This document shows, in pieces, positions 23,324 through 53,705 of a DNA stretch of 64,000 nt (positions within the stretch are counted from its first letter, which is position 1; every line of letters starts with the position of its first letter). The DNA is taken from the NCBI RefSeq assembly GCF_026410505.1, contig NZ_JAPMIU010000003.1, forward strand, positions 124,001 to 188,000, in the 5' to 3' direction. The position numbers and the translations under genes are program-made. This stretch comes from Frateuria hangzhouensis. GTDB taxonomy: Bacteria > Pseudomonadota > Gammaproteobacteria > Xanthomonadales > Rhodanobacteraceae. Under the pieces are notes generated by a model. The model saw nothing but the letters and a program-made list of their open reading frames with translations, was not told the origin of the DNA and made no database searches.

Positions 23324-24235
23324 ATGCAGGAAAAGAGCGCAAGTATCGCCGAAGCCGACCAGCGCAGCATCGCGGCCTTCCTCGAGCGGGTCTGGTCGGA
23401 GGACGGATTGGCCGACCGCACCCTGGAAGCGTATCGGCAGGACCTGGAAGGACTGGCGCGCTGGCTCGCCACGCGCGGACGCAGCCTGTCCACGGCGCGG
23501 CGCGAGGATCTGTCGGCCTTCCACGGCAGCCAGCCGGCCGCGGTGCGCTCGATGGCCCGGCGCCAGTCGACCTTCCGCCGCTATTACGGCCACCTGGCCC
23601 GCGACACCCCCGGGTTCGAAGATCCGACCCTGCTGATCGAGCGCCCGCGGATGCCGCGCAGCCTGCCCAAGGCGCTGGCCGAGCGCGAGATCGAGGCGCT
23701 GCTGGCCGCGCCCGATCTCACCTCCACCCTGGGCCTGCGCGACCGCGCCATGCTGGAGCTGATGTACGCCTCGGGCCTGCGCGTCTCCGAGCTGGTCGAC
23801 TTGCCGCTGGCCGCGCTCAACACCCGCCAGGGCGTGCTGCGGATCACCGGCAAGGGCGGCAAGGACCGGCTGGTGCCGGTGGGCGAGGTGGCGCTGGAGC
23901 GCATCGAGGCCTACCTCGCCGACGCGCGGCCGCGACTGGCCAAGGGCCGCCAGCCGGTAGCGTTGTTCCTCAGCCAGCGCGGCGAAGGGATGACCCGCCA
24001 GATGTTCTGGACCCTGGTCAAGCGCCACGCGCTGGCGGTCGGCATCGAGGGCAAGCGCATCTCCCCGCACGTGTTGCGCCATTCCTTCGCCACCCACTTG
24101 CTCAACCACGGTGCCGACCTGCGCGTACTGCAACTGCTGCTGGGCCACGCCTCGCTCAGCACTACGCAGATCTACACGCTGGTGGCGAAGGACGGCCTGA
24201 AGCGCCTGCACGCCAAGCATCATCCCCGCGGCTGA
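23324..24235 (+). CDS. xerD: Site-specific tyrosine recombinase XerD
   Basis: Resolves chromosome dimers at dif with XerC; 303 residues. The N-terminal SAM-like core-binding domain is followed by the catalytic domain with the full active site: Arg153 (GLRVSEL), Lys177 (TGKGGKDR), His249 and Arg252 (HVLRHSFATH), His275 (LGHASLSTTQ) and Tyr284 (IYT). XerD is preferred over XerC because of the family ending KDGLKRLHAKHHPRG. The start at 23324 (MQEKSASIAE) fits the family length. Confidence 0.95.
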   Translation: MQEKSASIAEADQRSIAAFLERVWSEDGLADRTLEAYRQDLEGLARWLATRGRSLSTARREDLSAFHGSQPAAVRSMARRQSTFRRYYGHLARDTPGFEDPTLLIERPRMPRSLPKALAEREIEALLAAPDLTSTLGLRDRAMLELMYASGLRVSELVDLPLAALNTRQGVLRITGKGGKDRLVPVGEVALERIEAYLADARPRLAKGRQPVALFLSQRGEGMTRQMFWTLVKRHALAVGIEGKRISPHVLRHSFATHLLNHGADLRVLQLLLGHASLSTTQIYTLVAKDGLKRLHAKHHPRG

Positions 24236-24246
24236 TGAGCATCGGC

Positions 24247-24300
24247 GTAGGGTGGGCTTCAGCCCACCGCGGCGGGCTGCTGGGCTGAAGGCCACCCTAC
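24247..24300. repeat. Family A palindromic repeat (copy A4)
   Basis: GTAGGGTGGGCTTCAGCCCA and the inverse arm TGGGCTGAAGGCCACCCTAC with a short centre, between xerD and the dsbC-like gene. Confidence 0.92.
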
Positions 24301-24390
24301 GGGGTGTGCGGAAGTGACAACCGCGCCAGCCCCGCTGTGCCAGAATCGGCCTGATCGCCGCTTTCCCCCACGCGGCCACGAGGTTTCCCG

Positions 24391-25164
24391 ATGTTCAAGA
24401 AGCTTTCCGCCGCGCTGCTCGCCAGCGCCTTCGCGCTCGCCGCCTGCGCCGCCGATCGCCAGGACGCCGTTGCCGCCGCTGGCGCGGCCGACCCGGCCGC
24501 CGAACAGGTCGTGCGCAGCGCACTGCAGAAGCTCGCCCCCGGCGTGCAACTGGACGAAATCTCGCCCGCGCCGCTGCCGGGCTTCTATCAGGTGATCGCC
24601 TCGGGCCAGCTCGTCTACGTCAGCACCGACGGCAAGTACATGCTCAATGGCGACCTGGTCGACCTGGGCGTGAAAGAGAACCTCAGCGAGCGCGCCTGGG
24701 CCGCGTTCCGCAAGAACCAGCTGGCCAAGGTGCCAGCATCCCAGCGCATCGTGTTCGCGCCGCCGAACCCCAGGTACACCGTCACCGTGTTCTCCGACGT
24801 CAACTGCGGTTACTGCCGCATGTTTCATTCGCACATCGACCAGCTGAACGCCGAAGGCATCGCCGTGGAGTACCTGGCCTGGCCGCGCGAGGGCCTGGCC
24901 ACCACCGCTGGCGACCCCACCGAGACCTACAAGGAAATGGTTTCGGTCTGGTGCGCGCCCGACCGCAAGGCCGCCTTCACGGCCGCCAAGCAGGGCAAGG
25001 CCCCCGAGCCGGCCACCTGCCCGAACCCGGTCAAGGACGAATTCGACCTGGGCGTGAAGCTGGGCGTCACCGGCACGCCGATGATCGTCGGCCCCAACGG
25101 CATGGTGCTGGGCGGCTACGTGCCGCCGGACAAGCTGCTGAAAATGCTCCAAAAGGGCGGCTGA
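24391..25164 (+). CDS. dsbC: DsbC-type periplasmic disulfide isomerase
   Basis: 257 residues. N-terminal signal with a possible lipobox (FALAAC, Cys19), a DsbC dimerisation domain (residues 40-110), and a thioredoxin domain with the active site CGYC at residues 139-142 (FSDVNCGYCRMFH). The cis-Pro loop is GVTGTPMIVGPNG. A second Cys pair (VWCAP, TCPNP) corresponds to the structural disulfide of DsbC. It would correct wrong disulfides in exported proteins. It could instead be called DsbG; the CGYC motif favours DsbC. Confidence 0.92.
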   Translation: MFKKLSAALLASAFALAACAADRQDAVAAAGAADPAAEQVVRSALQKLAPGVQLDEISPAPLPGFYQVIASGQLVYVSTDGKYMLNGDLVDLGVKENLSERAWAAFRKNQLAKVPASQRIVFAPPNPRYTVTVFSDVNCGYCRMFHSHIDQLNAEGIAVEYLAWPREGLATTAGDPTETYKEMVSVWCAPDRKAAFTAAKQGKAPEPATCPNPVKDEFDLGVKLGVTGTPMIVGPNGMVLGGYVPPDKLLKMLQKGG

Positions 25165-25172
25165 TCCGCTTT

Positions 25173-25247
25173 TTGCAGGGGCCCGCTTGCGGGCATGCTC
25201 TTCCGCATCCGTCCAGAAGGGCATCGCCCGCAAGCGGACTCCTACAG
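25173..25247. repeat. Family B palindromic repeat (copy B6)
   Basis: TTGCAGGGGCCCGCTTGCGG and the inverse arm GCAAGCGGACTCCTACAG between dsbC and purL. One base is missing from the usual GCGATGCT on the left side. Confidence 0.88.
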
Positions 25248-25335
25248 GGTCCGGAAGGGTGAGGGCGGCGTGGATGGGCCGCCTGGCGGCATCGGGTAGA
25301 ATGGGCGTTTCCCGCTTCGCGCCGAATCCCCCCGC

Positions 25336-28300
25336 ATGATCGCTTTCGACGGGCAGAGCGCCCTTTCGCCGTTTCGCCTGGATCGCCTGAACGCCCGTCT
25401 CGACGCGGTATACCGCGGTGCGCGGGTACAGGCTTCCTGGTTCGTCTACGTGCTGGATGCCGACCACACCCCGGAAGGCGCCGAGCGCAAGCGCCTGCTC
25501 GAGGTGCTGGAGGCCAGGGATGCCGCGCCCGAACCCGCCACGCTGTGGACGGTGCCGCGGCTGGGCACGATCTCGCCGTGGTCGAGCAAGGCCACCGACA
25601 TCCTGCATGGCGCCGGCTTCGACGCGCGCCGCGTCGAGCGCGGCGTCGCCTGGCAGGTGGCCGGCCTGCCGGATGCCGGTACGCCCGGGTACGCCGCGGT
25701 GACGGCGGTCCTGCACGATCCGATGACCGAATCGGTGCTGGCCGACCTGGCCCAGGCGCAGGGGCTGTTCCTGGCCGGCTCGCCGGGTGAGCTCGTGCAC
25801 ATCGAACTGGGCGGCGATCCGCGCGCCGCGCTCGCCGCCGCCAACGCCCGCCTGGGCCTGGCGCTGGCCGAGGACGAGATCGACTACCTCGCCGAGTGCT
25901 ACGCCGAACTCGGCCGCGACCCGAGCGACGCCGAGCTGTTCATGTTTGCGCAGGCCAACTCCGAGCATTGCCGCCACAAGGTGTTCAACGCCAGCTGGAC
26001 AATCGACGGCGAGGCACAGGACAAGAGCCTGTTCGCCATGATCAAGCACACCCACCAGTGCTCGCCGGCGCACACGCTGTCGGCCTACAAGGACAACGCG
26101 GCGGTGATCGAGGGCCACCCTGGCCAGCGCTTCTTCACCGACGGCCAGGGCATCTGGCGCCAGCACGACGAGCAGGTCGATTACGCGATCAAGGTCGAGA
26201 CGCACAACCACCCGACCGCCATCGCACCCTGGCCGGGCGCGGCCACCGGCGCCGGCGGCGAGATCCGCGACGAGGGCGCCACCGGCCGCGGCGCGCGGCC
26301 CAAGGCCGGCCTGAGCGGGTTCTCGGTGTCCGACCTGCGCATCCCCGGCGCGGCCGAGCCGTGGGAAGTGGACCGTCCGCTGCCGCCGCGCATGGCCAGC
26401 GCCTTCGAGATCATGCGCGACGGCCCGCTCGGCGCGGCCGCGTTCAATAACGAGTTCGGCCGCCCCTGCCTGGGCGGCTATTTCCGTACCTACGAACATG
26501 AAACCGGCGAAGCGGGCGTGCGCCGCGGCTACGACAAGCCGATCATGATCGCCGGCGGCCTGGCCAATATCCGCCGGGACCATGTCCAGAAGCGCGAGCT
26601 GGAGGCCGGCCACGCGGTGATCGTGCTGGGCGGCCCGGCGATGCTGATCGGCCTGGGCGGCGGCGCGGCCTCCTCGGTGGCCTCCGGTGCGTCCAGCGCG
26701 GAACTCGACTTCGCCTCGGTGCAGCGCGACAACGCCGAGATGGAGCGGCGCTGCCAGCAGGTGATCGACAGTTGCTGGATGCGCGGCGAGCACAATCCGA
26801 TCGTCAGCATCCACGACGTCGGCGCCGGCGGCCTGTCCAACGCGATTCCGGAGATCCTCAACGACGCCGGCGTCGGCGGCGAGATCGACCTCTCCAAGAT
26901 CCCCTGCGACGATCCCTCGCTCTCGCCGATGCAGGTGTGGAGCAACGAATCGCAGGAGCGCTACGTGCTCGGCATCGCGCAGGAAGACCTCGCCGAATTC
27001 GAGGCCTACTGCCAGCGCGAGCGCTGCCCCTACGCCGTCGTCGGCACCGCGACCGCCGAGCGCATATTGCGCGTGCGCGATCCACGCCGCGACCTGACCG
27101 TCATCGACCTGCCGATGGACGTGCTGTTCGGCAAGCCGCCGCGCATGCACCGCGACGCGCAGCGCATCAAGCCGCGCGTGGACCTGCTGCCGGACCTCTC
27201 CGGCATCGGCATGGACGAGGCGGTGCAGCGCGTGCTGCGCCTGCCCACGGTGGGCAGCAAGAGCTTCCTGATCACTATCGGCGACCGCACTGTCGGCGGC
27301 CTGAACCATCGCGACCCGATGGTCGGCCCGTGGCAGGTGCCGGTGGCCGACTGCGCCGTGACGCTGACCGACTTCGACGGCTACCAGGGCGAGGCGATGG
27401 CGATGGCCGAGCGCGCGCCGGTGGCGCTGCTCTCCAGCGCCGATGCCGCGCGCCTGGCGGTGGGCGAGGCGATCACCAACCTGGCCGCCGCGCCGATCGA
27501 AAACCTGGGCGAGATCCGCCTGTCGGCCAACTGGATGGCCGCGGTCAACCATCCGGGCGAGGACGCCGCCCTGTTCGACGCGGTCAAGGCCGTTGGCATG
27601 GAGCTGTGCCCCGCGCTGGACATCGCCATCCCGGTCGGCAAGGACTCGCTCTCGATGCAGACCGTGTGGCAGGACGGTGAGCAGCCGCAGCGCACGGTGG
27701 CGCCGGTATCGCTGGTCATCACCGGTTTCGTCCGCGTCGATGACGTGCGCCGCACGCTCACGCCGCAGCTCAAGCTCGACCGGGGTGATTCGGACCTGTG
27801 GCTGCTCGACCTGGGCGCCGGCCGCGACCGCCTGGGCGGCTCCGCGCTGACTCAGGTGTTCAACCGCTCCGGTGGCGTGCCGCCGGACCTGGACGATCCC
27901 AGGCGCCTGCGCGCGCTGTTCGAACTGGTGCAGGAAGCCAACCGCGCCGGACTGGTGCTGGCCTACCACGACCGCTCCGACGGCGGCGTGCTGGTGACCC
28001 TGCTGGAGATGGCGTTCGCCGGCCACTGTGGCCTGGAGCTCCATCTCGATGGCTGGGCGGACGCGACCCTGCGCGCGCTCTTCAACGAGGAGCTCGGCGC
28101 CGTGCTGCAGGTGGCCAGCGCCAACCGCGAGGCGTTCGAGGCGCTGCTGGTCAAGCACAGCCTGGCCGGCATGAGCCACCGCATCGGTCGGCCCAGGGAA
28201 AAGCTCGGCATCAAGCTCTACCTGGGCAACGAAAGCGTGTTCAAGTGGAACTGGACGCAGTTGTTCGGCGCCTGGAACCACGCCAGCCACGCCATGCAGC

Positions 28301-45749: not shown

Positions 45750-46142
45750 CTACCCCACAAAGTGATCATCCGCGTGACGATCACGCTCATATCGTCGTTC
45801 GAGCGGAAACGGCGGCAACCAGGCTTCGCGACGAATGGTCCAGCTTTCGTAGGTGGGTATCAGTTGGTTCGGGGCATCCAGCGATCCCAGATGCACCTCG
45901 ATCTCGTCTGCGCTACGCGCAAAAACGGAGGAGCCGCAGCGGGGACAGAAGAACCGACCGGCGTAATCGCGCGTCTCCCCTTCGATCGTTACCGCGTCCT
46001 GGTGGAACACTGCCGCGGCGTAAAAGAGCGCGCCGTGGTGCTTGCGGCAATCCAGGCAATGGCAGAGACCGACCCGGAAAGGTGGCCCCGAAGCCACGAT
46101 CCGCACCTCACCGCACATGCAGCCGCCGGTCAATTGATCCAT
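45750..46142 (-). CDS. GFA/CENP-V-family zinc protein (first copy)
   Basis: 130 residues. The three Cys motifs of the glutathione-dependent formaldehyde-activating fold are complete: GGCMCGEVRI, LCHCLDCRKHHG and RFFCPRCGSSVFARS. This fold binds zinc; whether this protein acts on formaldehyde-glutathione is not shown. A second, more distant copy is encoded at 46839-47270 on the same strand. The 162-base gap to the DUF4386 gene contains only A/T-richer sequence with no gene. Confidence 0.9.
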   Translation of the reverse strand: MDQLTGGCMCGEVRIVASGPPFRVGLCHCLDCRKHHGALFYAAAVFHQDAVTIEGETRDYAGRFFCPRCGSSVFARSADEIEVHLGSLDAPNQLIPTYESWTIRREAWLPPFPLERRYERDRHADDHFVG

Positions 46143-46153
46143 GCGAGGTCCTC

Positions 46154-46771
46154 TCAGGCAGAAGGGTCCGGGTCTGGCGCAGTCTCCTGCACGGCGCCGG
46201 CGTGGCCGTGCTGCGAAGCCGCGGGACCCGGGCGAGGCGTTGGCGACACCTTCGTCGTACTGCAATGGACGCCGGAAAAGCCGATGCCCCAGGCCCAGTT
46301 CGCCGCGGTGCATCGGATCAGTGATGGCCCGGAGCCGGAAACCGCGACCTCCAGCCGGATGAGGATCTCTTCATCGCGGCATTGCCAATTGAATGCAGTG
46401 GGGGTCGTGATCAACCTGCGGCCGCCAACCTCGAGGCTGTCAATGGACACGTAACCCGAGCCCATGCATGCGCCTGCATCCGACGGATAGACCCTGAGTT
46501 TCGCAACTACGGTAGTCGATTCGAGCGGGCAGGTCAGCTCGTGGGTACCGTGGGGTACCTTGGAAAACCCATCCTCGCGCGGTACGGCCCCCTTGTCTTC
46601 GGAGCTCAGCTCAACCACAGGGGCTATGACAAAGGTGCCCCGAGTTCCGTCACACCGGGTCGCGGCTCCCACGATGCCCCAGTCCGCGCGTGCGCAGAAC
46701 GACAGCAGTAAAAAAGCGATGCCGCTCAGGATGCGTGGAAATGGCATGAGACGTGGGACGTGCTTGCTCAT
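46154..46771 (-). CDS. Exported protein of unknown function
   Basis: 205 residues from the ATG at 46771. The signal peptide (ILSGIAFLLLSFCARADW) is followed by a Cys-containing beta-rich domain (GIVGAATRCDGTRGTFVIAP, HELTCPLESTTVVAKLRVYP, FNWQCRDEEILIRLEVAVSG) and a Pro-rich C-terminus that runs into the leader of the GFA gene, 11 bases on. Start alternatives at 46747 and 46810. No ribosome-binding site is convincing, so the call rests on the leader and Cys pattern. Confidence 0.6.
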   Translation of the reverse strand: MSKHVPRLMPFPRILSGIAFLLLSFCARADWGIVGAATRCDGTRGTFVIAPVVELSSEDKGAVPREDGFSKVPHGTHELTCPLESTTVVAKLRVYPSDAGACMGSGYVSIDSLEVGGRRLITTPTAFNWQCRDEEILIRLEVAVSGSGPSLIRCTAANWAWGIGFSGVHCSTTKVSPTPRPGPAASQHGHAGAVQETAPDPDPSA

Positions 46772-46838: not shown

Positions 46839-47270
46839 TCACTTGTAGTCATTGACGAGGGCTCCGTCAGAGGAGGCCTGGTACTGCGGGAGGCTGTCCG
46901 TGATCTCGTAGAAGTCGCATTTCTCGCCTACGAAGATGTGCCCGATGGTGCGGAGTCCTGTTGGTCCATCCAGCGATCCCGCAATGATCCCCGTGGCATC
47001 CAGATCAAAAGGCTCCCAGAACAGACTGGATCCACACACGCGGCAGAAGCCGCGCTGGGCGATCTCCGACGTTTTGTACCAGGCCAGGCCACTGTCGCAA
47101 GTGATTGTGATGTTGACCTTTCGCGCCTTGGAGTGGGGGCCAAAGTTGCCGTGCAGGCGCTGACACATGCTGCAGTGACAGTTGACCACGTCACGCAAAG
47201 GACCTTTGACCTCATAGCGAACTGCCCCGCAAAGGCAACCTCCCGTCGTGATGCTTTGATCTTCAGTCAT
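46839..47270 (-). CDS. GFA/CENP-V-family zinc protein (second copy)
   Basis: 143 residues with TGGCLCGAVRYEVKGPL, NCHCSMCQRLHGNFGPH and RGFCRVCGSSLFWEP as the zinc/GFA motifs, and the family ending (GTSLDGPTGL-like region GIIAGSLDGPTGLRTIGHIF). AAGG lies 8 bases before the ATG at 47270; an ATG at 47288 is in frame. It shares only the fold with the first copy and is not a recent duplicate. It adjoins the IS30 remnant. Confidence 0.9.
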   Translation of the reverse strand: MTEDQSITTGGCLCGAVRYEVKGPLRDVVNCHCSMCQRLHGNFGPHSKARKVNITITCDSGLAWYKTSEIAQRGFCRVCGSSLFWEPFDLDATGIIAGSLDGPTGLRTIGHIFVGEKCDFYEITDSLPQYQASSDGALVNDYK

Positions 47271-47349
47271 CTCGGAACCTTCCATCACCTAGCACCTGGG
47301 GTAAACCGCGCCGCGAAGCGGCGTCACCTTGGACGAACTGTTGGGCGCC

Positions 47350-48060
47350 GCAGGTCGACGAACCAGGTGCAACACCCGTGGCGCCCGAAAGAGAAGGGGT
47401 GAGCTGGCAGACTGGAGGGGATCACTCCGGCAAGAGACGATCCCTCATGTGCCACCAGCTCACCGAGCAGGAACGATACACGCGTGGGCGTTCTACGACG
47501 ACAAGGCTCGTCGCTGCGCATCATTGCCAGATCCTGGAGAGGCATTCGAGCACGATCAGCCGTGGGATGCACCGCAACGCCTGCCACGCCAACGATGATG
47601 CATATCGGCCAAGCAAGGCGCAGGAAGGGACCGGCGGCAGGCGACAGGCGCTCACGCAGCGTGCGCCAACACGACCAGGCCATCTACGAAGCGATCGAAG
47701 GCTTGCTGCAGGACAAACAGTGCAGCCCCGAACGGATCGCCAACTGGTTGAGGTTCACCGGTGCGGCCCGGATCAGCTACATGTGCGCGAGGATGCCAGG
47801 TACGGCGGTGTGCTCTGGCTCTCACTGCCGCAAGGAGGCAAACGTCGGAGCAAACGTACCTTCGGGCCGGAAAAGCGTGGGCGCCTGCAAGGCAACCGAT
47901 GATCGACACCCGGCCGGACGCGCGCCTACCGCACCGGTCCTGGCAGCACGGGAGCAACGAAAACTTTAACGGTCGCCTGCGCCAATACGTACCCAAGCGC
48001 CGCAGCTTGGCCCATCTACAGGAATCACTCGGGGGCGTTGCACCTTGAGTGTTAATTCAC
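47350..48060. mobile_element. Decayed IS30-family insertion sequence
   Basis: Terminal inverted repeats are still visible: AGGTGCAACACCC at 47365-47377 and GGGCGTTGCACCT at 48033-48045 (12 of 13 bases pair). The outer few bases are too diverged to place exact ends. The length of about 700 bases is well short of a normal IS30-type element (about 1.1-1.2 kb), in line with an internal deletion in the transposase. Confidence 0.75.
47447..48048 (+). pseudogene. IS30-family transposase remnant
   Basis: Pieces of one transposase are spread over three frames. In order they are: LTEQERYT (N-terminal helix-turn-helix), LRRQGSSLRIIARSW, STISRGMHRNACHANDDAYR, IYEAIEGLLQDKQCSPERIA, VREDARYGGVLWLSLPQGGK, and the C-terminal PHRSWQHGSNENFNGRLRQY. 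Several frameshifts separate them. The DDE core between MIDTRPDARLP and HRSWQHGSNEN is missing, so the protein cannot be active. Confidence 0.85.
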
Positions 48061-48289: not shown

Positions 48290-50542
48290 TCAGAGCAGGC
48301 GCAGCAGCTCCTTCATCAGCGGCAGCCGCCGCACGCGGACGGCGCTGGCGCGGAAGACGGCGTTGGCCAGGGCGGGGGCGGCGGTGGGCATGGCCAGGAA
48401 GCTGGCGCCGGTGGGGGCGCGGTCGTTGGGAACGGTGATGACTTCGACGTCGTTGGGGAGCTGGGCCATGCTGGCCAAGGGGTAGTCCTGGAGGCTCTGT
48501 TGCCGGACTTGGCCGTTCTTGTAGGTAATCGCCGGATTCAACGCATTGGAGAGGGCGTCGAGGGTAGCGCCGGCGACCTGGCCCTGCAGGCCCAGTGGGT
48601 TGATCACGCGGCCGACGTCGACGGCGCAGACCACGCGCACGATCTCCAGCTTTTCGCCGTGCACGGCCGCCTCGATGGCGTGGGCGACGTAGGCGCCGTC
48701 GATGTGCCAGCAGGCCACGCCCATGCCGTTGACGTTGTGCAGCCAGTTTTTCCACTCGACGCGGTCGGTGACCAGCTTGAGCACGTTGAGCAGCCGGCCG
48801 ACGTCGAGCATGCGGCGGCCGCCGAGCGGAATCTGCCGTGCTTCGCCGAGCAACCGCAGCCGCGTGACCAGTGGGTCTTCGCGCAGGGTGTGGGCGATCT
48901 CGTCGATGAAGCTTTCCACCGCGAACGCATTGGTAACGTGCGGCTCGCCGCGGAAGGGCCCGCGTGGCATCGCCGAGGCCAGGCTGTACCAGTCGCTGCG
49001 ATAGTTGGGGACGAGCCCGGCGGGAAGCTGCTCGGCGCTGATCTCGGACGTCCACAGGCGGTCGGCGGCGGTGCCGCGGCCGCTGAGCGCCGAGGCGCTG
49101 GCCAGGCGCTGGTCCCACGCGATGACCTGGCGCTTGCGCCCGATGATCGCCTTGATCTTGTGCACCGTGCCGGAGCGGTAGTAGTCGTGGGCAAGGCCCT
49201 GCTCGCGCGTCCACATCAGGCGCACGGGCTTGTCGACGGCCTTGGCCAGCATCACCGCCTCGGCGACGTAGTCGTGGTCCAGCCGGCGACCGTAGCCGCC
49301 GCCCACCCGCGGCACTTCGATGGCGATCCGGTCGGCGGCCAGGCCGGTCAGGCGCTGCACCACCGCCCAGGCCTGCTGCGGCGCTTGGGTCGGCACCACC
49401 AGGCTGGCCTGGTCCTTGTCCAGGCGCACCAGGCAATTCATCGGCTCGGGCGTGGCATGGGCCAGCCAGGGCTGCACGTAGGTGGCTTCCACGCGGCGCG
49501 CAGCCTTGCGGCCGGCGGCGGCGAGGTCGCCTTCGTCGCGCACGCGCGTGGTCGGCGCGCTGTCGGTGTCGAGCAGGGCGATCGCCCTGGCTTCGAGCTT
49601 GGCGCTGTCCTCGTCGGCGCTGTGCGCGCCCGGCTTCCATTCGAGCTTGAGTTCGGCAAGGCCGCGCAGCGCCGCCCAGGTGTTCTCCGCGAGCACGGCC
49701 ACGGCCGGTGCAATCGCGGTCTGGCCGGGCGGCACGTCGGCCTCGGGGTTGATCGGCATCACCTTGACCACGCCCTTGATGGCCAGCGCGGGCGCGGTCT
49801 CGATGCTGGCCAGGCTGCCATCCGGCCAGGGGCACTGCGCCAGCACGGCGACCAGCGCATCCGCGTAATGGGTGTCGATGGCATAGCGGGTGCGGCCGGT
49901 GACGATGTGGCGTGCATCGACATCGCCGGCGGGATGGCCGATCAGCGTGTAGCGTTGCGGCGGCTTCAGCGGCAGCGGCGCGGCGGGCGGGTCGATCTTG
50001 CTGGCCGCCTCGACCAGGCTGCCATACGGAAAGCGGCGGCCGTCGGGCGTCACCACCACGCCGGACTCGCAGCGCAGCCGGTCGGCGGCAAAACCCAGGC
50101 GCCGCGCGGCGGCCTGGGTGATCAGCCAGCGCGCCAGCGCGCCGGCCTGGCGCAGGTCGGCCCACGCGGCGGGAATCGAATCGCCGGTGCCGCTGCGCTG
50201 GTGGCCGTAGATCCACACCGGCTTGCCGTCTTTGGCTTCCACGCCCAGGCCCAGCGGCATCACGGTGACACGGGTCCAGTCGGCGTCCAGCTCTTCGGCG
50301 ATGATGCGGGGCAGCGAGGTGGCGGTGCCGGTGCCGGTATCCGGGTCGCGCGCGCCGATCAGCACGTTGCCCTCGCGGTCGATGCGCACGTAGGCGCCGA
50401 GCTGGCCGAAATCATCGCCGAGCATGGCCGGCGGAATCGGCACCTCGGCATCGGCATGGCCGATACCCACCACCAGCGCACCGGCGGTGCCGGCCAGCAC
50501 CTGCAGGAAGCGCCGGCGCGACAGCTGCACGCGCCCGCTCAT
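48290..50542 (-). CDS. Xanthine-oxidase-family molybdopterin subunit (IorB-like), active-site Glu missing
   Basis: 750 residues. The Tat signal RRRFLQVLAGTAGALVVGI fits periplasmic export of a cofactor-loaded enzyme. The fold is that of isoquinoline 1-oxidoreductase beta subunits: DADWTRVTVMPLGLGVEAKD, VGGGYGRRLDHDYVAEAVML and NAFAVESFIDEIAHTLREDP. Near the C-terminus, where the family has GVGEP followed after about eight residues by ALANA, this protein reads GASFLAMP..ALANA, placing Phe715 where the catalytic Glu should be. The N-terminal MGQG motif reads TGTG. Either the protein has lost hydroxylase chemistry or it uses another base. The 241-base gap toward the IS remnant holds no gene. Confidence 0.85.
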   Translation of the reverse strand: MSGRVQLSRRRFLQVLAGTAGALVVGIGHADAEVPIPPAMLGDDFGQLGAYVRIDREGNVLIGARDPDTGTGTATSLPRIIAEELDADWTRVTVMPLGLGVEAKDGKPVWIYGHQRSGTGDSIPAAWADLRQAGALARWLITQAAARRLGFAADRLRCESGVVVTPDGRRFPYGSLVEAASKIDPPAAPLPLKPPQRYTLIGHPAGDVDARHIVTGRTRYAIDTHYADALVAVLAQCPWPDGSLASIETAPALAIKGVVKVMPINPEADVPPGQTAIAPAVAVLAENTWAALRGLAELKLEWKPGAHSADEDSAKLEARAIALLDTDSAPTTRVRDEGDLAAAGRKAARRVEATYVQPWLAHATPEPMNCLVRLDKDQASLVVPTQAPQQAWAVVQRLTGLAADRIAIEVPRVGGGYGRRLDHDYVAEAVMLAKAVDKPVRLMWTREQGLAHDYYRSGTVHKIKAIIGRKRQVIAWDQRLASASALSGRGTAADRLWTSEISAEQLPAGLVPNYRSDWYSLASAMPRGPFRGEPHVTNAFAVESFIDEIAHTLREDPLVTRLRLLGEARQIPLGGRRMLDVGRLLNVLKLVTDRVEWKNWLHNVNGMGVACWHIDGAYVAHAIEAAVHGEKLEIVRVVCAVDVGRVINPLGLQGQVAGATLDALSNALNPAITYKNGQVRQQSLQDYPLASMAQLPNDVEVITVPNDRAPTGASFLAMPTAAPALANAVFRASAVRVRRLPLMKELLRLL

Positions 50543-51066
50543 GCCTGCGCTCCGGCGGCCCGCTTGATGGCGCGGCGCACGCGCGTCTGGCAGCCGCAGC
50601 GGCAGCGGTTGGGCAGCTTGTCGATGTCCTCGTCGGAGGCCTTGGGCTTGCGCGTGAGCAGGTCGATGCCGGCGATCAGCCAGCCGGCGGTGCAGTAGCC
50701 GCAGCCGATCGCGTCCTCGTCGATAAAGGCCTGCTGCAGCGGGTGCAGGCCGCCGTCGGCGCGGGCCAGGCCTTCGACCGTGGTGACGCGCGCATCGACC
50801 AGCTTGGCCATCGGCCATGTGATGGCCGGCACGGCCTTGCCGTTCACCAGCACCAGATCGTAGCCGTCCTTGCCCTGGGCGTCGCCGACCTTGGTGCCGG
50901 TCAGCCGCAGCACGTCGCGCAGGTACCACAGCAGCGGCATCAGGGGATCGCCGGTGTGCTTGAAACGCTCGCCGTTGACGATCAGGTCGATGCCCTCGCG
51001 CACCGGTTCCGGCGTGATGTCGCCGGTGGTGGCGGCGGGCAGGCCCTGGGCTTGCGCTTGCGGCAT
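50539..51066 (-). CDS. IorA-like iron-sulfur subunit lacking the first cluster's cysteines
   Basis: 175 residues. The overall pattern is the small 2Fe-2S subunit of the xanthine oxidase family. The C-terminal cluster motif is intact (GCGYCTAGW with Cys122 and Cys125; RCRCGC with Cys155 and Cys157). The N-terminal ferredoxin-like motif should read GxKxGC....CGAC; here it reads GTKVGDAQGKDGYDLVLVNG, with Asp62, Asp67 and Asp70 at the positions of the three cysteines, and no Cys for the fourth. It overlaps the large-subunit start by 4 bases, so the two are co-translated. No cytochrome c subunit gene is adjacent. Confidence 0.85.
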   Translation of the reverse strand: MPQAQAQGLPAATTGDITPEPVREGIDLIVNGERFKHTGDPLMPLLWYLRDVLRLTGTKVGDAQGKDGYDLVLVNGKAVPAITWPMAKLVDARVTTVEGLARADGGLHPLQQAFIDEDAIGCGYCTAGWLIAGIDLLTRKPKASDEDIDKLPNRCRCGCQTRVRRAIKRAAGAQA

Positions 51067-51171
51067 CGGGGCGTCTCCATGCGTGGGACGCCTATTGTGG
51101 CATCGCCCAGGTGATGAGGCAGCCGTCGGCAGGCGCGGTATTCAGCCGAGGGCAGCGGTGCGGCGTGCACC

Positions 51172-51250
51172 TGCAGGAGTCCCGTTGTGGGCGATGCTTT
51201 TTGCGGTGCCATCAGGCGCAAGGGCATCGCCCACAAGCGGGCTCCTGCAA
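51172..51250. repeat. Family B palindromic repeat (copy B8)
   Basis: TGCAGGAGTCCCGTTGTGGG and the inverse arm CCACAAGCGGGCTCCTGCA in the 218-base gap between the APC permease gene and the iron-sulfur subunit gene. Confidence 0.9.
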
Positions 51251-51284
51251 AAAACGTCGCACGAAGGGAGTTATTCGAGGTTCC

Positions 51285-52604
51285 CTACAGGGGATTTCGA
51301 ACCGACAGCCGCCGCCAGGCGTAATAGACCGGCACGCCGGCCAGCATGATCAGCACGCCGATGCCGGCGTTGCGCGGGTTGTCGCGCATGGTAGCCACCA
51401 CCACCGCGGCGGTGGCGGCGACGAACAGCAGCGGCAGCAGCGGGTAGCCGGGTACGCGGAAGACCACCGTGCCGGCATCGTGGCGGCGATACCAGAACAG
51501 CGTCGCCACGCCCACCGCGCAGGCCAGCCAGTCGCCGAAGGTGGCGTAGTCCAGCAGCGCGCCGTAGCTGCCCGACAGCGCCAGCACGATCGCCCAGCCG
51601 GCCAATGCGGCCAGCGCCACGTTGGGCGTGCGGTAGCGCGGGTGCAGGTGCGCCACGGCGCGGAAGAACAGGCCATCGGCGCCCATCACCTGCAGCACGC
51701 GCGCGCCGGCCACCAGCGTGATGTTGCAGAAGCCCAGCGTGGAAATGGCAATGCCCAGTGCCATCAGCCGCGCACCCACCGGGCCGAACATGCGGTCCAT
51801 CACCTCGGCCGCCGGCGCCGTGCTGGCGGCCAGCCCGTCGTGGCCGAGCACGGCCAGGTAGGCCAGGTTCACCAGCGCGTAGGCACCGATCACCAGCAGC
51901 ATGCCGATCACCAGCGCGCGCGGCAGGTTGCGTTGCGGCGCATCGACTTCGCCGGCCAGGTTGTTGAGGTAGGTAAAGCCCGAATAGGCGAACAGCACCG
52001 GCAGCGCCGCGCCCATGAAGCCCACGCCGGCGCGCGCCGGATCGGCCGCCAGCGCCGCCGGCGCATGCGCCCCGGCCAGGTACAGCCCGCACGCCACCAG
52101 CACCGACACGGCCAGCAGCTTGAGCAGCGCGAACAGGTTCTGCACCTGCGCGCCGAGCCTGAGCCCGAACAGATTGATCAGCGCCACGAACACCAGCGCG
52201 CCGACGGTCAGCGGCAGCGCCGCGGTCGCGGGCAGCGCGAAGGCCGCCACCGTATAGCTGGCGAAGATCGTGGCCACCGCCGCGGTCGAGCCGGAGTAGA
52301 TCACCAGCAGCATGGTCCAGCCGAACAGGAAGCCGGCCAGCGGCCCGAACGCTTCGCGCAGGTAGACGTAGATGCCGCCGGCTTGCGGCCGTCGCGCGCC
52401 GAGTTCGGCGTAGCACAGCGCGCCGATGAGCGTGAGCAGGCCCGCGCCGATCCACACCAGCAGCAGCGCCAGGCCCGACCCGGTGCGCTGCGCGGCGATG
52501 CCGGGGTTGAGGAAAATGCCGCCGCCGATGACGCCGCCGACCACGATCAGCGCGGCGTCCCAAGGGCCCAGGCTGCGCCGGTAGCCGTCTGTCTGGTTGC
52601 TCAT
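51285..52604 (-). CDS. APC-superfamily amino acid permease
   Basis: 439-residue inner-membrane transporter with about twelve hydrophobic segments. The first contains the substrate-loop glycines (LIVVGGVIGGGIFLNPG), and ELGARRPQAGGIYVYLREAF and AYSGFTYLNNLAGEVDAPQR are typical of LAT/APC-type exchangers. Substrate not deducible. The start at 52604 (MSNQTDGYRRSL) has AGGGGA upstream; the frame continues upstream without a better start. Confidence 0.9.
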   Translation of the reverse strand: MSNQTDGYRRSLGPWDAALIVVGGVIGGGIFLNPGIAAQRTGSGLALLLVWIGAGLLTLIGALCYAELGARRPQAGGIYVYLREAFGPLAGFLFGWTMLLVIYSGSTAAVATIFASYTVAAFALPATAALPLTVGALVFVALINLFGLRLGAQVQNLFALLKLLAVSVLVACGLYLAGAHAPAALAADPARAGVGFMGAALPVLFAYSGFTYLNNLAGEVDAPQRNLPRALVIGMLLVIGAYALVNLAYLAVLGHDGLAASTAPAAEVMDRMFGPVGARLMALGIAISTLGFCNITLVAGARVLQVMGADGLFFRAVAHLHPRYRTPNVALAALAGWAIVLALSGSYGALLDYATFGDWLACAVGVATLFWYRRHDAGTVVFRVPGYPLLPLLFVAATAAVVVATMRDNPRNAGIGVLIMLAGVPVYYAWRRLSVRNPL

Positions 52605-52718: not shown

Positions 52719-52818
52719 TTGTAGGAGCCCACTCCTGCAGTGGGTTCCCCGTAGGGTGGGCTTCAGCCCACCATGGCGGAACCGCTGCGCCAGAGCGGTG
52801 GGCTGAAGCCCACCCTAC
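52719..52818. repeat. Half family B repeat joined to a complete family A repeat (B9 + A7)
   Basis: A left arm of family B (TTGTAGGAGCCCACTCCTGC at 52719) is followed after 12 bases by a full family A element (GTAGGGTGGGCTTCAGCCCA at 52751 to CCCACCCTAC at 52818). The CTA at 52815-52817 of the right arm is the TAG stop of the phzF-like gene read on the other strand. This shows that the two families can insert next to each other. Confidence 0.9.
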
Positions 52819-53705
52819 GCGCCGGCGATATCGTCGAGCCTGAGTGTGCCGCGCACGCCGATGGCGCAGTGGCCGCCGATGGTGACCGTGCCGGAGCCCT
52901 GGTCCACGTTGACCTCCACGCGACCGTCCCGGCCCACTTCGCGGCCCTGGTTGGCGATATAGCGGCTGCCGTAATGCGCCAGGTTGCCGGTGTGGCGCAG
53001 CAGCGCGCCGATCGCCGCGTTGGCGCTGCCGGTGACCGGGTCTTCCGGGATGCCGTCGGCCGGGCAGAAGGCGCGCACCGCCATCGCCGCGTCACCGCCG
53101 GCTTCGGTGCCGAACACGCTCACGCCGACCGCGGCGTGCGCCTCACACAGCGCGGCGATGGCGGAAAGATCGGGCGCCAGCGTGCGCACCGCGGGCGCGG
53201 CGGCGAGGTCGCAGACGATCCACCGCGGTCCGTTGTCGATGGCGTGCACGGCGCCGGGGCGCAGGTCGAGCTTCAGCGCGCGGCCCAGCGCGGCGGCCAG
53301 CGCCTCGTCCACGGTTTCGATGCGCGCGGGCGGTGCCTGGACGTGGATGGCGCGCGTGGCCCCTTCGCCCTGCACGGTCACCGGCAGCAGCCCGGCGGCG
53401 CACTCCTGCACCAGTTCGCCTTTGAGCGGCACGCGGCCGGCCTCGATCGCCGCATAGGCGCTGCCGACGCTGGGATGCCCGGCAAACGGCAATTCCTGGC
53501 GTGGGGTGAAGATGCGCACGCGGTAGTCGGCATCCGGGCGCGTGGGGCGCAGCAGAAAGGTGGTTTCGGAGAGGTTGGTCCAGCGCGCGATGCGCTGCAT
53601 CGCCGGCCCGTCCAGCGCGTCGGCGCCGATCACCACGGCCAGCGGGTTGCCCTCGAGCAGGCGCGCGGCGAATACGTCCAGTTGCAGGAAGTCGAAGGTA
53701 GGCAT
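52815..53705 (-). CDS. PhzF-family isomerase/epimerase-like protein
   Basis: 296 residues. The N-terminus FLQLDVFAARLLEGNPLAVV, the catalytic-Glu region TNLSETTFLL, IFTPRQELPFAGHPSVGSAY and GIPEDPVTGSANAAIGALL are all diagnostic of the PhzF fold. Real PhzF acts in phenazine synthesis; most members in other organisms, including this one with no phz genes near, have unknown substrates. Its stop codon is supplied by a family A repeat arm. Confidence 0.93.
   Translation of the reverse strand: MPTFDFLQLDVFAARLLEGNPLAVVIGADALDGPAMQRIARWTNLSETTFLLRPTRPDADYRVRIFTPRQELPFAGHPSVGSAYAAIEAGRVPLKGELVQECAAGLLPVTVQGEGATRAIHVQAPPARIETVDEALAAALGRALKLDLRPGAVHAIDNGPRWIVCDLAAAPAVRTLAPDLSAIAALCEAHAAVGVSVFGTEAGGDAAMAVRAFCPADGIPEDPVTGSANAAIGALLRHTGNLAHYGSRYIANQGREVGRDGRVEVNVDQGSGTVTIGGHCAIGVRGTLRLDDIAGA

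Follow-up and report, generated by a model that had tools for sequence, protein, structure and literature searches.

The IorAB-like gene pair in the window (the whole 64,000-nucleotide stretch of DNA analysed here) probably encodes a protein free of the molybdenum cofactor (Moco), descended from a dehydrogenase of the xanthine-oxidase family (IorAB/AldFGH type) that Tat exports to the periplasm. As judged from sequence comparison, the complex would hold no molybdenum and would have taken on a new role, in catalysis, redox sensing or the binding of a ligand. Because the pair is kept by selection in soil bacteria without Moco genes, despite its lost cluster and catalytic residues, it probably has a new job. 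Comparison of homologues indicates that the catalytic Glu, the pterin-loop Gln, a small-subunit Gln, and the distal Cys were replaced stepwise. Here, "distal" denotes the N-terminal cluster and "proximal" the C-terminal cluster; the xanthine-oxidase literature often names the C-terminal, Moco-proximal cluster Fe/S I. The pair and its parts are as follows.

50539..51066, minus strand: small subunit, IorA-like, 175 aa, with an N-terminal ferredoxin-like part that lacks the cluster Cys and an intact C-terminal [2Fe-2S] domain
50857..50898, minus strand: former N-terminal (distal) cluster loop, residues 57-70, GTKVGDAQGKDGYD, with Asp62, Asp67 and Asp70 at three Cys sites
50821..50823, minus strand: residue 82, Ile, the fourth lost Cys site
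50596..50706, minus strand: residues 121-157, with Gly121 and the proximal [2Fe-2S] ligands C122, C125, C155 and C157
48290..50542, minus strand: large subunit, IorB/AldF-like, 750 aa, whose ATG overlaps the small-subunit stop (ATGA)
50447..50542, minus strand: Tat (twin-arginine) signal, LSRRRFLQVLAG..., matched by TIGR01409 at 16.9 bits (cut-off 16.7)
50327..50347, minus strand: pterin-binding loop, residues 66-72, DPDTGTG, in which the Gln of (E)MGQG is Thr71
49283..49303, minus strand: GGGYGRR loop, residues 414-420, kept (F417 to Y)
48380..48409, minus strand: former catalytic loop, residues 712-721, GASFLAMPTA, with Phe715 at the Glu site

Matches to PF01799, PF02738, and PF20256, all above their cut-offs, identify the pair as homologous to the small and large subunits of the xanthine-oxidase family. 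In the small subunit, the Pfam search (E <= 0.01) detected Fer2_2 (PF01799) at 70.2 bits and reported no N-terminal Fer2 model. The best solved relatives of this subunit are 5y6q_A and 8gy3_B (aldehyde oxidase and aldehyde dehydrogenase), and Asp62, Asp67, and Asp70 align without gaps to the three distal-cluster Cys of solved small subunits. The fourth distal Cys, found at position 82 in Cys-bearing relatives, is Ile82 in the window protein, while Cys122, 125, 155, and 157 are all present. The initial annotation of this DNA had read the small subunit in just this way, with three in-register Asp for Cys, the fourth Cys gone, and the C-terminal cluster intact, and its view that the usual electron path is broken was judged right; it was incomplete in that it included neither the changes in the partner subunit (Glu and pterin-loop Gln) nor the absence of Moco genes from the host. 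It had also raised the possibility that close homologues carry the normal Cys. The three distal Cys are in fact missing in all 24 of the closest named-record loci (L032-L055; 22 from Rhodanobacter, Dyella, and Frateuria, one "Lysobacterales bacterium," and one "Proteobacteria bacterium"), which rules out a sequencing error or a unique mutation, and they are present in all 56 more distant named-record loci (L056-L111).

The large subunit retains detectable MoCoBD_1 (97 bits) and MoCoBD_2 domains, and both the good MoCoBD_1 score and the kept GGGYGRR loop count against a Moco-free reading. We take the position of residue 715 to be that of the catalytic Glu of the G-x-G-E loop, residue 71 to correspond to the Gln of the pterin-binding MGQG loop, and the Gln at small-subunit residue 121 to have a functional role, as in known enzymes. 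The closest solved large subunit is that of the aldehyde dehydrogenase 8gy3, presumably from an acetic acid bacterium, which aligns over window residues 4-743, including a Tat-like N terminus (E 4.6e-52); its small subunit aligns over window residues 40-174. Whereas 8gy3 has GLGEPG, EMGQ, and the distal Cys, the window pair has GASFLA, DTGT, and no distal Cys (PTGLGEPG versus PTGASFLA across the catalytic loop). We then placed these differences in a large-subunit alignment of 162 rows, with a reference set of 16 Glu-bearing family members and 4 outgroups (n=20). Residue 715 is E in 20/20 reference rows and F in 87/88 derived rows (L in 1/88), and residue 71 is Q in 20/20 reference rows and T in 87/88 derived rows (R in 1/88). 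More broadly, 176 positions are conserved in at least 85% of the 20 reference rows, and 24 of these are each kept by fewer than half of the derived rows, including Q71, G119, S120, F417, W530, P533, G714, and E715; several of the 24 presumably sit in loops lining the Mo site, as in known enzymes. Conversely, 37 residues count as fixed among the derived rows (96% or more) and occur in at most 15% of the 20 reference rows, and many of these are found already in the intermediates described below.

Typing across the family covered 164 loci from 162 of 197 genomes, with a derived class of 90 loci in 89 genomes and 14 genera. The N-terminal Cys set is missing in all 90 derived loci, and the C-terminal set is complete in 89, the last being cut before its second half. 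The residue immediately preceding the first proximal Cys, 121, is Q in 15/17 Glu-bearing loci, M or L in 23 intermediates with a GEG pterin loop, and G in 90/90 derived loci. Residue 129 is likewise Q in 15/17 Glu-bearing loci and W in every derived locus, and 81 of the 90 carry an extra Cys159.

The Asp triad itself is minor: it is not a conserved unit, and only Asp70 is invariant in the clade. In the 90 derived loci, the residues counted at position 62 are G71/D10/S8/R1 and those at position 67 mainly G47/N22/S9, with D6, whereas every locus has D at position 70. The initial annotation had proposed a search for homologues sharing the three Asp; DDD was found in only four genomes, all of the window's genus (4/88 derived tree rows), and the other two sampled genomes of that genus (G005 and G074) read GGD. 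On the tree, Asp62 accounts for 4 changes and Asp67 for 3 within the derived clade, and the genetic code allows Gly to become Asp by a single base change. The earlier suggestion that the replacements were selected rather than products of decay therefore divides: the Cys loss is in register, common to the clade, and accompanied by purifying selection, but the triad is no selected unit, given these separate changes and the Gly found at both positions in two species of the same genus. It had further been suggested that the DxxxxDGxD spacing binds a metal such as calcium. Such a selected site has in its favour the four genomes, all of a single genus, that carry the three Asp in register, and the invariant Asp70, but Asp62 and Asp67 are missing from most of the clade, Gly occupies both positions in G005 and G074, and the former distal-cluster loop differs in length among loci. 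Since only Asp70 is invariant, a D-x4-D-G-x-D site is not conserved even in the genus, and we consider selection for calcium binding very unlikely. Asp70 probably caps the emptied ferredoxin loop.

To order the changes, we used trees built without the two changed loops, one by FastTree (162 large subunits) and one by a quick IQ-TREE run (59-row subset). Both gave the same ladder, from forms with GQG, Cys, and mostly Glu, through forms with D(N/C)GEG, Cys, and an altered Glu loop (GASV, GASI, GAST, or GATG), to the derived clade with GTG, GASF, and no distal Cys. The last two steps have support of 99-100 in both trees, while the deepest forks are partly unresolved (92-94); the derived clade itself has local support of 99 in the 162-row FastTree and an SH-aLRT of 100 in the 59-row IQ-TREE. 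Relatives that still have the Cys already have a changed Glu, which indicates at the sequence level that the Glu was altered before the Cys were lost. In the full tree, distal-Cys loss maps to 3 changes with the untyped G077 counted as lacking Cys and to 2 without it, the second being G004, and in the 59-row subset to 1 change. The distal-Cys loss of the derived clade is one event at the base of a clade of 14 genera. The Glu state changes 7 times, or 8 with G077 scored as Glu. This GEG row (small subunit untyped) reads GASE, with Glu in place, and counts against a Moco-free reading.

Two further forms were seen among these relatives. In the GEG loci (L125, L126, L129, L136, L137, L143, and others), the pterin-loop Gln is Glu, GQG having become GEG in 24/24 rows, as if the carboxylate had moved across the pocket; G077 has both Glu. 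The L159 locus (G004, genus g5) holds a related pair without the distal Cys and most of the proximal Cys, in a genome with MoaC and MoeA, and is a separate degenerate form. A derived form outside the family was also considered and set aside: in a class-wide sample of 369 genomes, just two matched at E <= 1e-38, the window's own and one more from its family, to which the derived form seems restricted.

The Moco pathway was then examined in the hosts. MoaA, MoaC, and MoeA were not found in the window's genome, which is 99.94% complete. Among the 197 family genomes, MoaC is present in 149 and MoeA in 150, and both are missing in 43. This set includes every genome sampled from the window's genus, six in number with the window's own, and six of its members are assembled in a single contig (G017, G023, G031, G039, G046, and G069). 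MoaA is missing in the same 43/43 and present in 8/8 family controls. The XdhC-type insertion chaperone (XdhC_CoxI) is missing in 42/43, as well as in 2/8 of the Moco-making controls. Separately, in G063 (contig C12, ~23971-27941), an XdhC gene lies near a second MoCoBD_1 match, yet this genome is without MoaA, MoaC, and MoeA.

The pair is nevertheless kept in 42 of the 43 Moco-less genomes, 31 with the derived form and 11 with Cys, the exception being G071. Most of the 43 encode a single MoCoBD_1 protein (one in 36, two in 5, and none in 2, namely G071 and G074, whose pair sits at a contig end). The Glu loop is readable in 41 of the 42 (G074 is cut by the contig end), and Glu715 occurs in none of them; six of the 41 read GAED, with acidic residues kept in the loop. 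The loss of the cofactor and that of the cluster do not closely track each other, because 11 Moco-less genomes keep the Cys, six of them with GAED. Each of the 18 Glu715 loci belongs to a genome that has MoaC and MoeA. A tree-aware test for association between Glu state and Moco state, with no more than five starred independent pairs, gave no significance (median p 1). What carries the argument is that the pair is kept without Moco, rather than a correlation between Glu and Moco. The Moco state changes 20 times on the tree, 15 of them inside the derived clade; like the counts for Glu, these do not separate gain from loss.

These distributions bear on the alternative that the derived pair has remained a molybdoenzyme whose active site is unusual, with electrons exiting directly from the proximal cluster, and that it stands idle in the Moco-less genomes. 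MoaC and MoeA are encoded in the host genomes of 58 of the 90 derived loci, so the pair may bind Moco there; the retained GGGYGRR loop and the MoCoBD_1 detection are consistent with it as well. Against this, the pair is kept in nearly every Moco-less genome, purifying selection acts on it in the two Moco-less derived sets examined, and the Glu and the pterin-loop Gln are missing in 88/88 derived large subunits. We regard a persisting molybdoenzyme as unlikely.

The pair is under purifying selection. In the Moco-less genus g1, median pairwise dN/dS is 0.21 for the small-subunit N half, 0.16 for its C half, and 0.15 for the large subunit; in the Moco-less genus g18, the medians are 0.62, 0.15, and 0.28, with one pair at 1.17 in the N half. 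Three Moco-making derived groups fall at 0.07-0.21 (N half), 0.08-0.14 (C half), and 0.09-0.13 (large), and two Cys-bearing GEG groups at 0.18-0.21, 0.07-0.10, and 0.11-0.17. The corresponding values are 0.12, 0.15, and 0.17 in a Moco-less GAED group and 0.13, 0.08, and 0.13 in the Glu-bearing g25 group. For the g1 neighbours described below, dN/dS is 0.08-0.21 (permease) and 0.20-0.32 (PhzF). Constraint on the pair is thus like that on the adjacent genes, and in g1 it is similar to that in Glu-bearing or Cys-bearing relatives; in g18 the N part is relaxed. The export signal also persists, as an RR-x-F motif occurs near the large-subunit N terminus in 89 of the 90 tree rows without distal Cys (G004 and the untyped G077 included), and TatC was found in 9/9 genomes tested.

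A decaying remnant would account for the lost cluster and active-site residues, for the relaxed N half in g18, and for the assembly of L127 (G055, outside the derived clade), in which the large subunit is split in two reading frames, perhaps by a genuine break, perhaps through a fault in the assembly. Such decay is extremely unlikely, however, for a pair that is present in 89 genomes of 14 genera with low dN/dS in the sets examined, 37 fixed residues that are rare in Glu-bearing forms, and a kept Tat motif.

Two genes lie upstream of the pair in the window.

51285..52604, minus strand: APC amino-acid permease, directly upstream of the pair on the same strand
52815..53705, minus strand: PhzF-like protein, upstream of the permease and a neighbour in part of the loci

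Neighbours were located by tblastn, with a permease match defined as at least 300 aa, upstream, on the same strand, and within 250 bp. By this definition the permease is upstream of the pair in 45/62 loci (27/38 plus 18/24 named records, some genomes being counted twice); L033 was left out of this count since its match is an 87-aa fragment. The permease stands beside Glu-bearing, intermediate, and derived forms alike, which supports vertical descent in place. Such adjacency could mean that the pair is an ancillary periplasmic pseudoenzyme of the permease, comparable to 4F2hc, the catalytically dead partner of animal SLC7 transporters. However, the Glu-bearing forms show the same adjacency, which thus predates inactivation, and of 29 genomes searched, 10 (G136, G023, G094, G173, G022, G116, G069, G181, G146, and G105) carry a derived pair without a close permease orthologue, showing just a second permease of 56-61% identity. 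This weakens an obligate pairing with the APC permease, and on this gene-order evidence we consider a role as permease partner quite unlikely. A cytochrome c partner was considered too, and a simple GC3-based gene call found no CxxCH protein beside the pair in the window or in 14 loci.

Returning to a Moco-free, exported pair with a new function, we infer that the complex would fold around one [2Fe-2S] cluster and would be exported in the folded state via Tat, with hydroxylation of substrate given up. Counting against this reading, along with the MoCoBD_1 score, the GGGYGRR loop, and G077 mentioned above, are the 58 derived loci whose hosts have MoaC and MoeA, the non-significant tree-aware test, the loose coupling of cofactor and cluster loss, the relaxed N half in g18, the XdhC gene of G063, and the lack of XdhC in 2/8 controls. 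The remodelled, conserved pocket (Phe715, Thr71, Gly121, and Trp129) may then serve another ligand or a structural or redox-sensing contact. That the product is a binding or redox-sensing pseudoenzyme seems to us an even prospect, and likelier than a new enzyme with another cofactor, which is possible though doubtful. For the clade as a whole, the chances appear balanced that a Mo hydroxylase became a Moco-independent, exported one-cluster heterodimer, its emptied pocket now accommodating a new ligand or cofactor, and that this heterodimer was kept while the Moco pathway came and went.

A comparable case is NuoG of complex I, a molybdoenzyme-fold subunit that has kept its Fe-S clusters and lost Mo cofactor binding. 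Unlike the window pair, NuoG is in the DMSO reductase superfamily and has a known respiratory role. Closer in layout is the Pseudomonas simiae deoxyribose dehydrogenase, described as IorAB-like, Mo-dependent, and encoded in an operon with a cytochrome c gene (PMC6365646). It resembles the window pair in its iorAB-like two-subunit layout and in a large subunit with a potential Tat signal, and it is suspected to be periplasmic (PMC6365646). It differs in that the window pair and 14 loci have no CxxCH neighbour and the window's host lacks the Moco genes tested. Orphan molybdoproteins of Moco-less genomes have been surveyed and belong mostly to the DMSOR and XO families (PMC6147048). Like them, the window pair is made up of XO-family proteins whose host genomes lack a full Moco pathway. 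That survey leaves errors, relics, and Mo-independent forms undistinguished, raises Mo-independence as a possibility, and reports no significant sequence-level features (PMC6147048), whereas here a specific clade shows stepwise losses in the active site, the pterin loop, and the cluster. Among the matches listed from the open-licence literature, titles and abstract openings gave no description that we recognised as this pair.

The clade thus gives sequence marks for orphan molybdoproteins (GAGE to GASF, GQG to GTG, Gly for Gln ahead of the proximal cluster, and distal-cluster loss), along with stepwise intermediates and a pair that persists through repeated changes in the Moco pathway. In Rhodanobacter, Dyella, Frateuria, and their relatives, the loops of a protein annotated as MoCoBD/IorB should be checked before it is called a molybdoenzyme.

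A few features around the pair were noted by eye. Just downstream of the large subunit, translations of window positions 47378-48050 resemble a broken IS30-type transposase, and GC-rich short inverted or repeated segments at 51160-51260 and 52720-52820, either side of the permease gene, resemble interspersed palindromic repeats. Farther along, two proteins like those of the glutathione-dependent formaldehyde-activating (GFA) family are encoded on the minus strand, one at 45750-46313, seen by eye, and one at 46839-47288, checked with Pfam.
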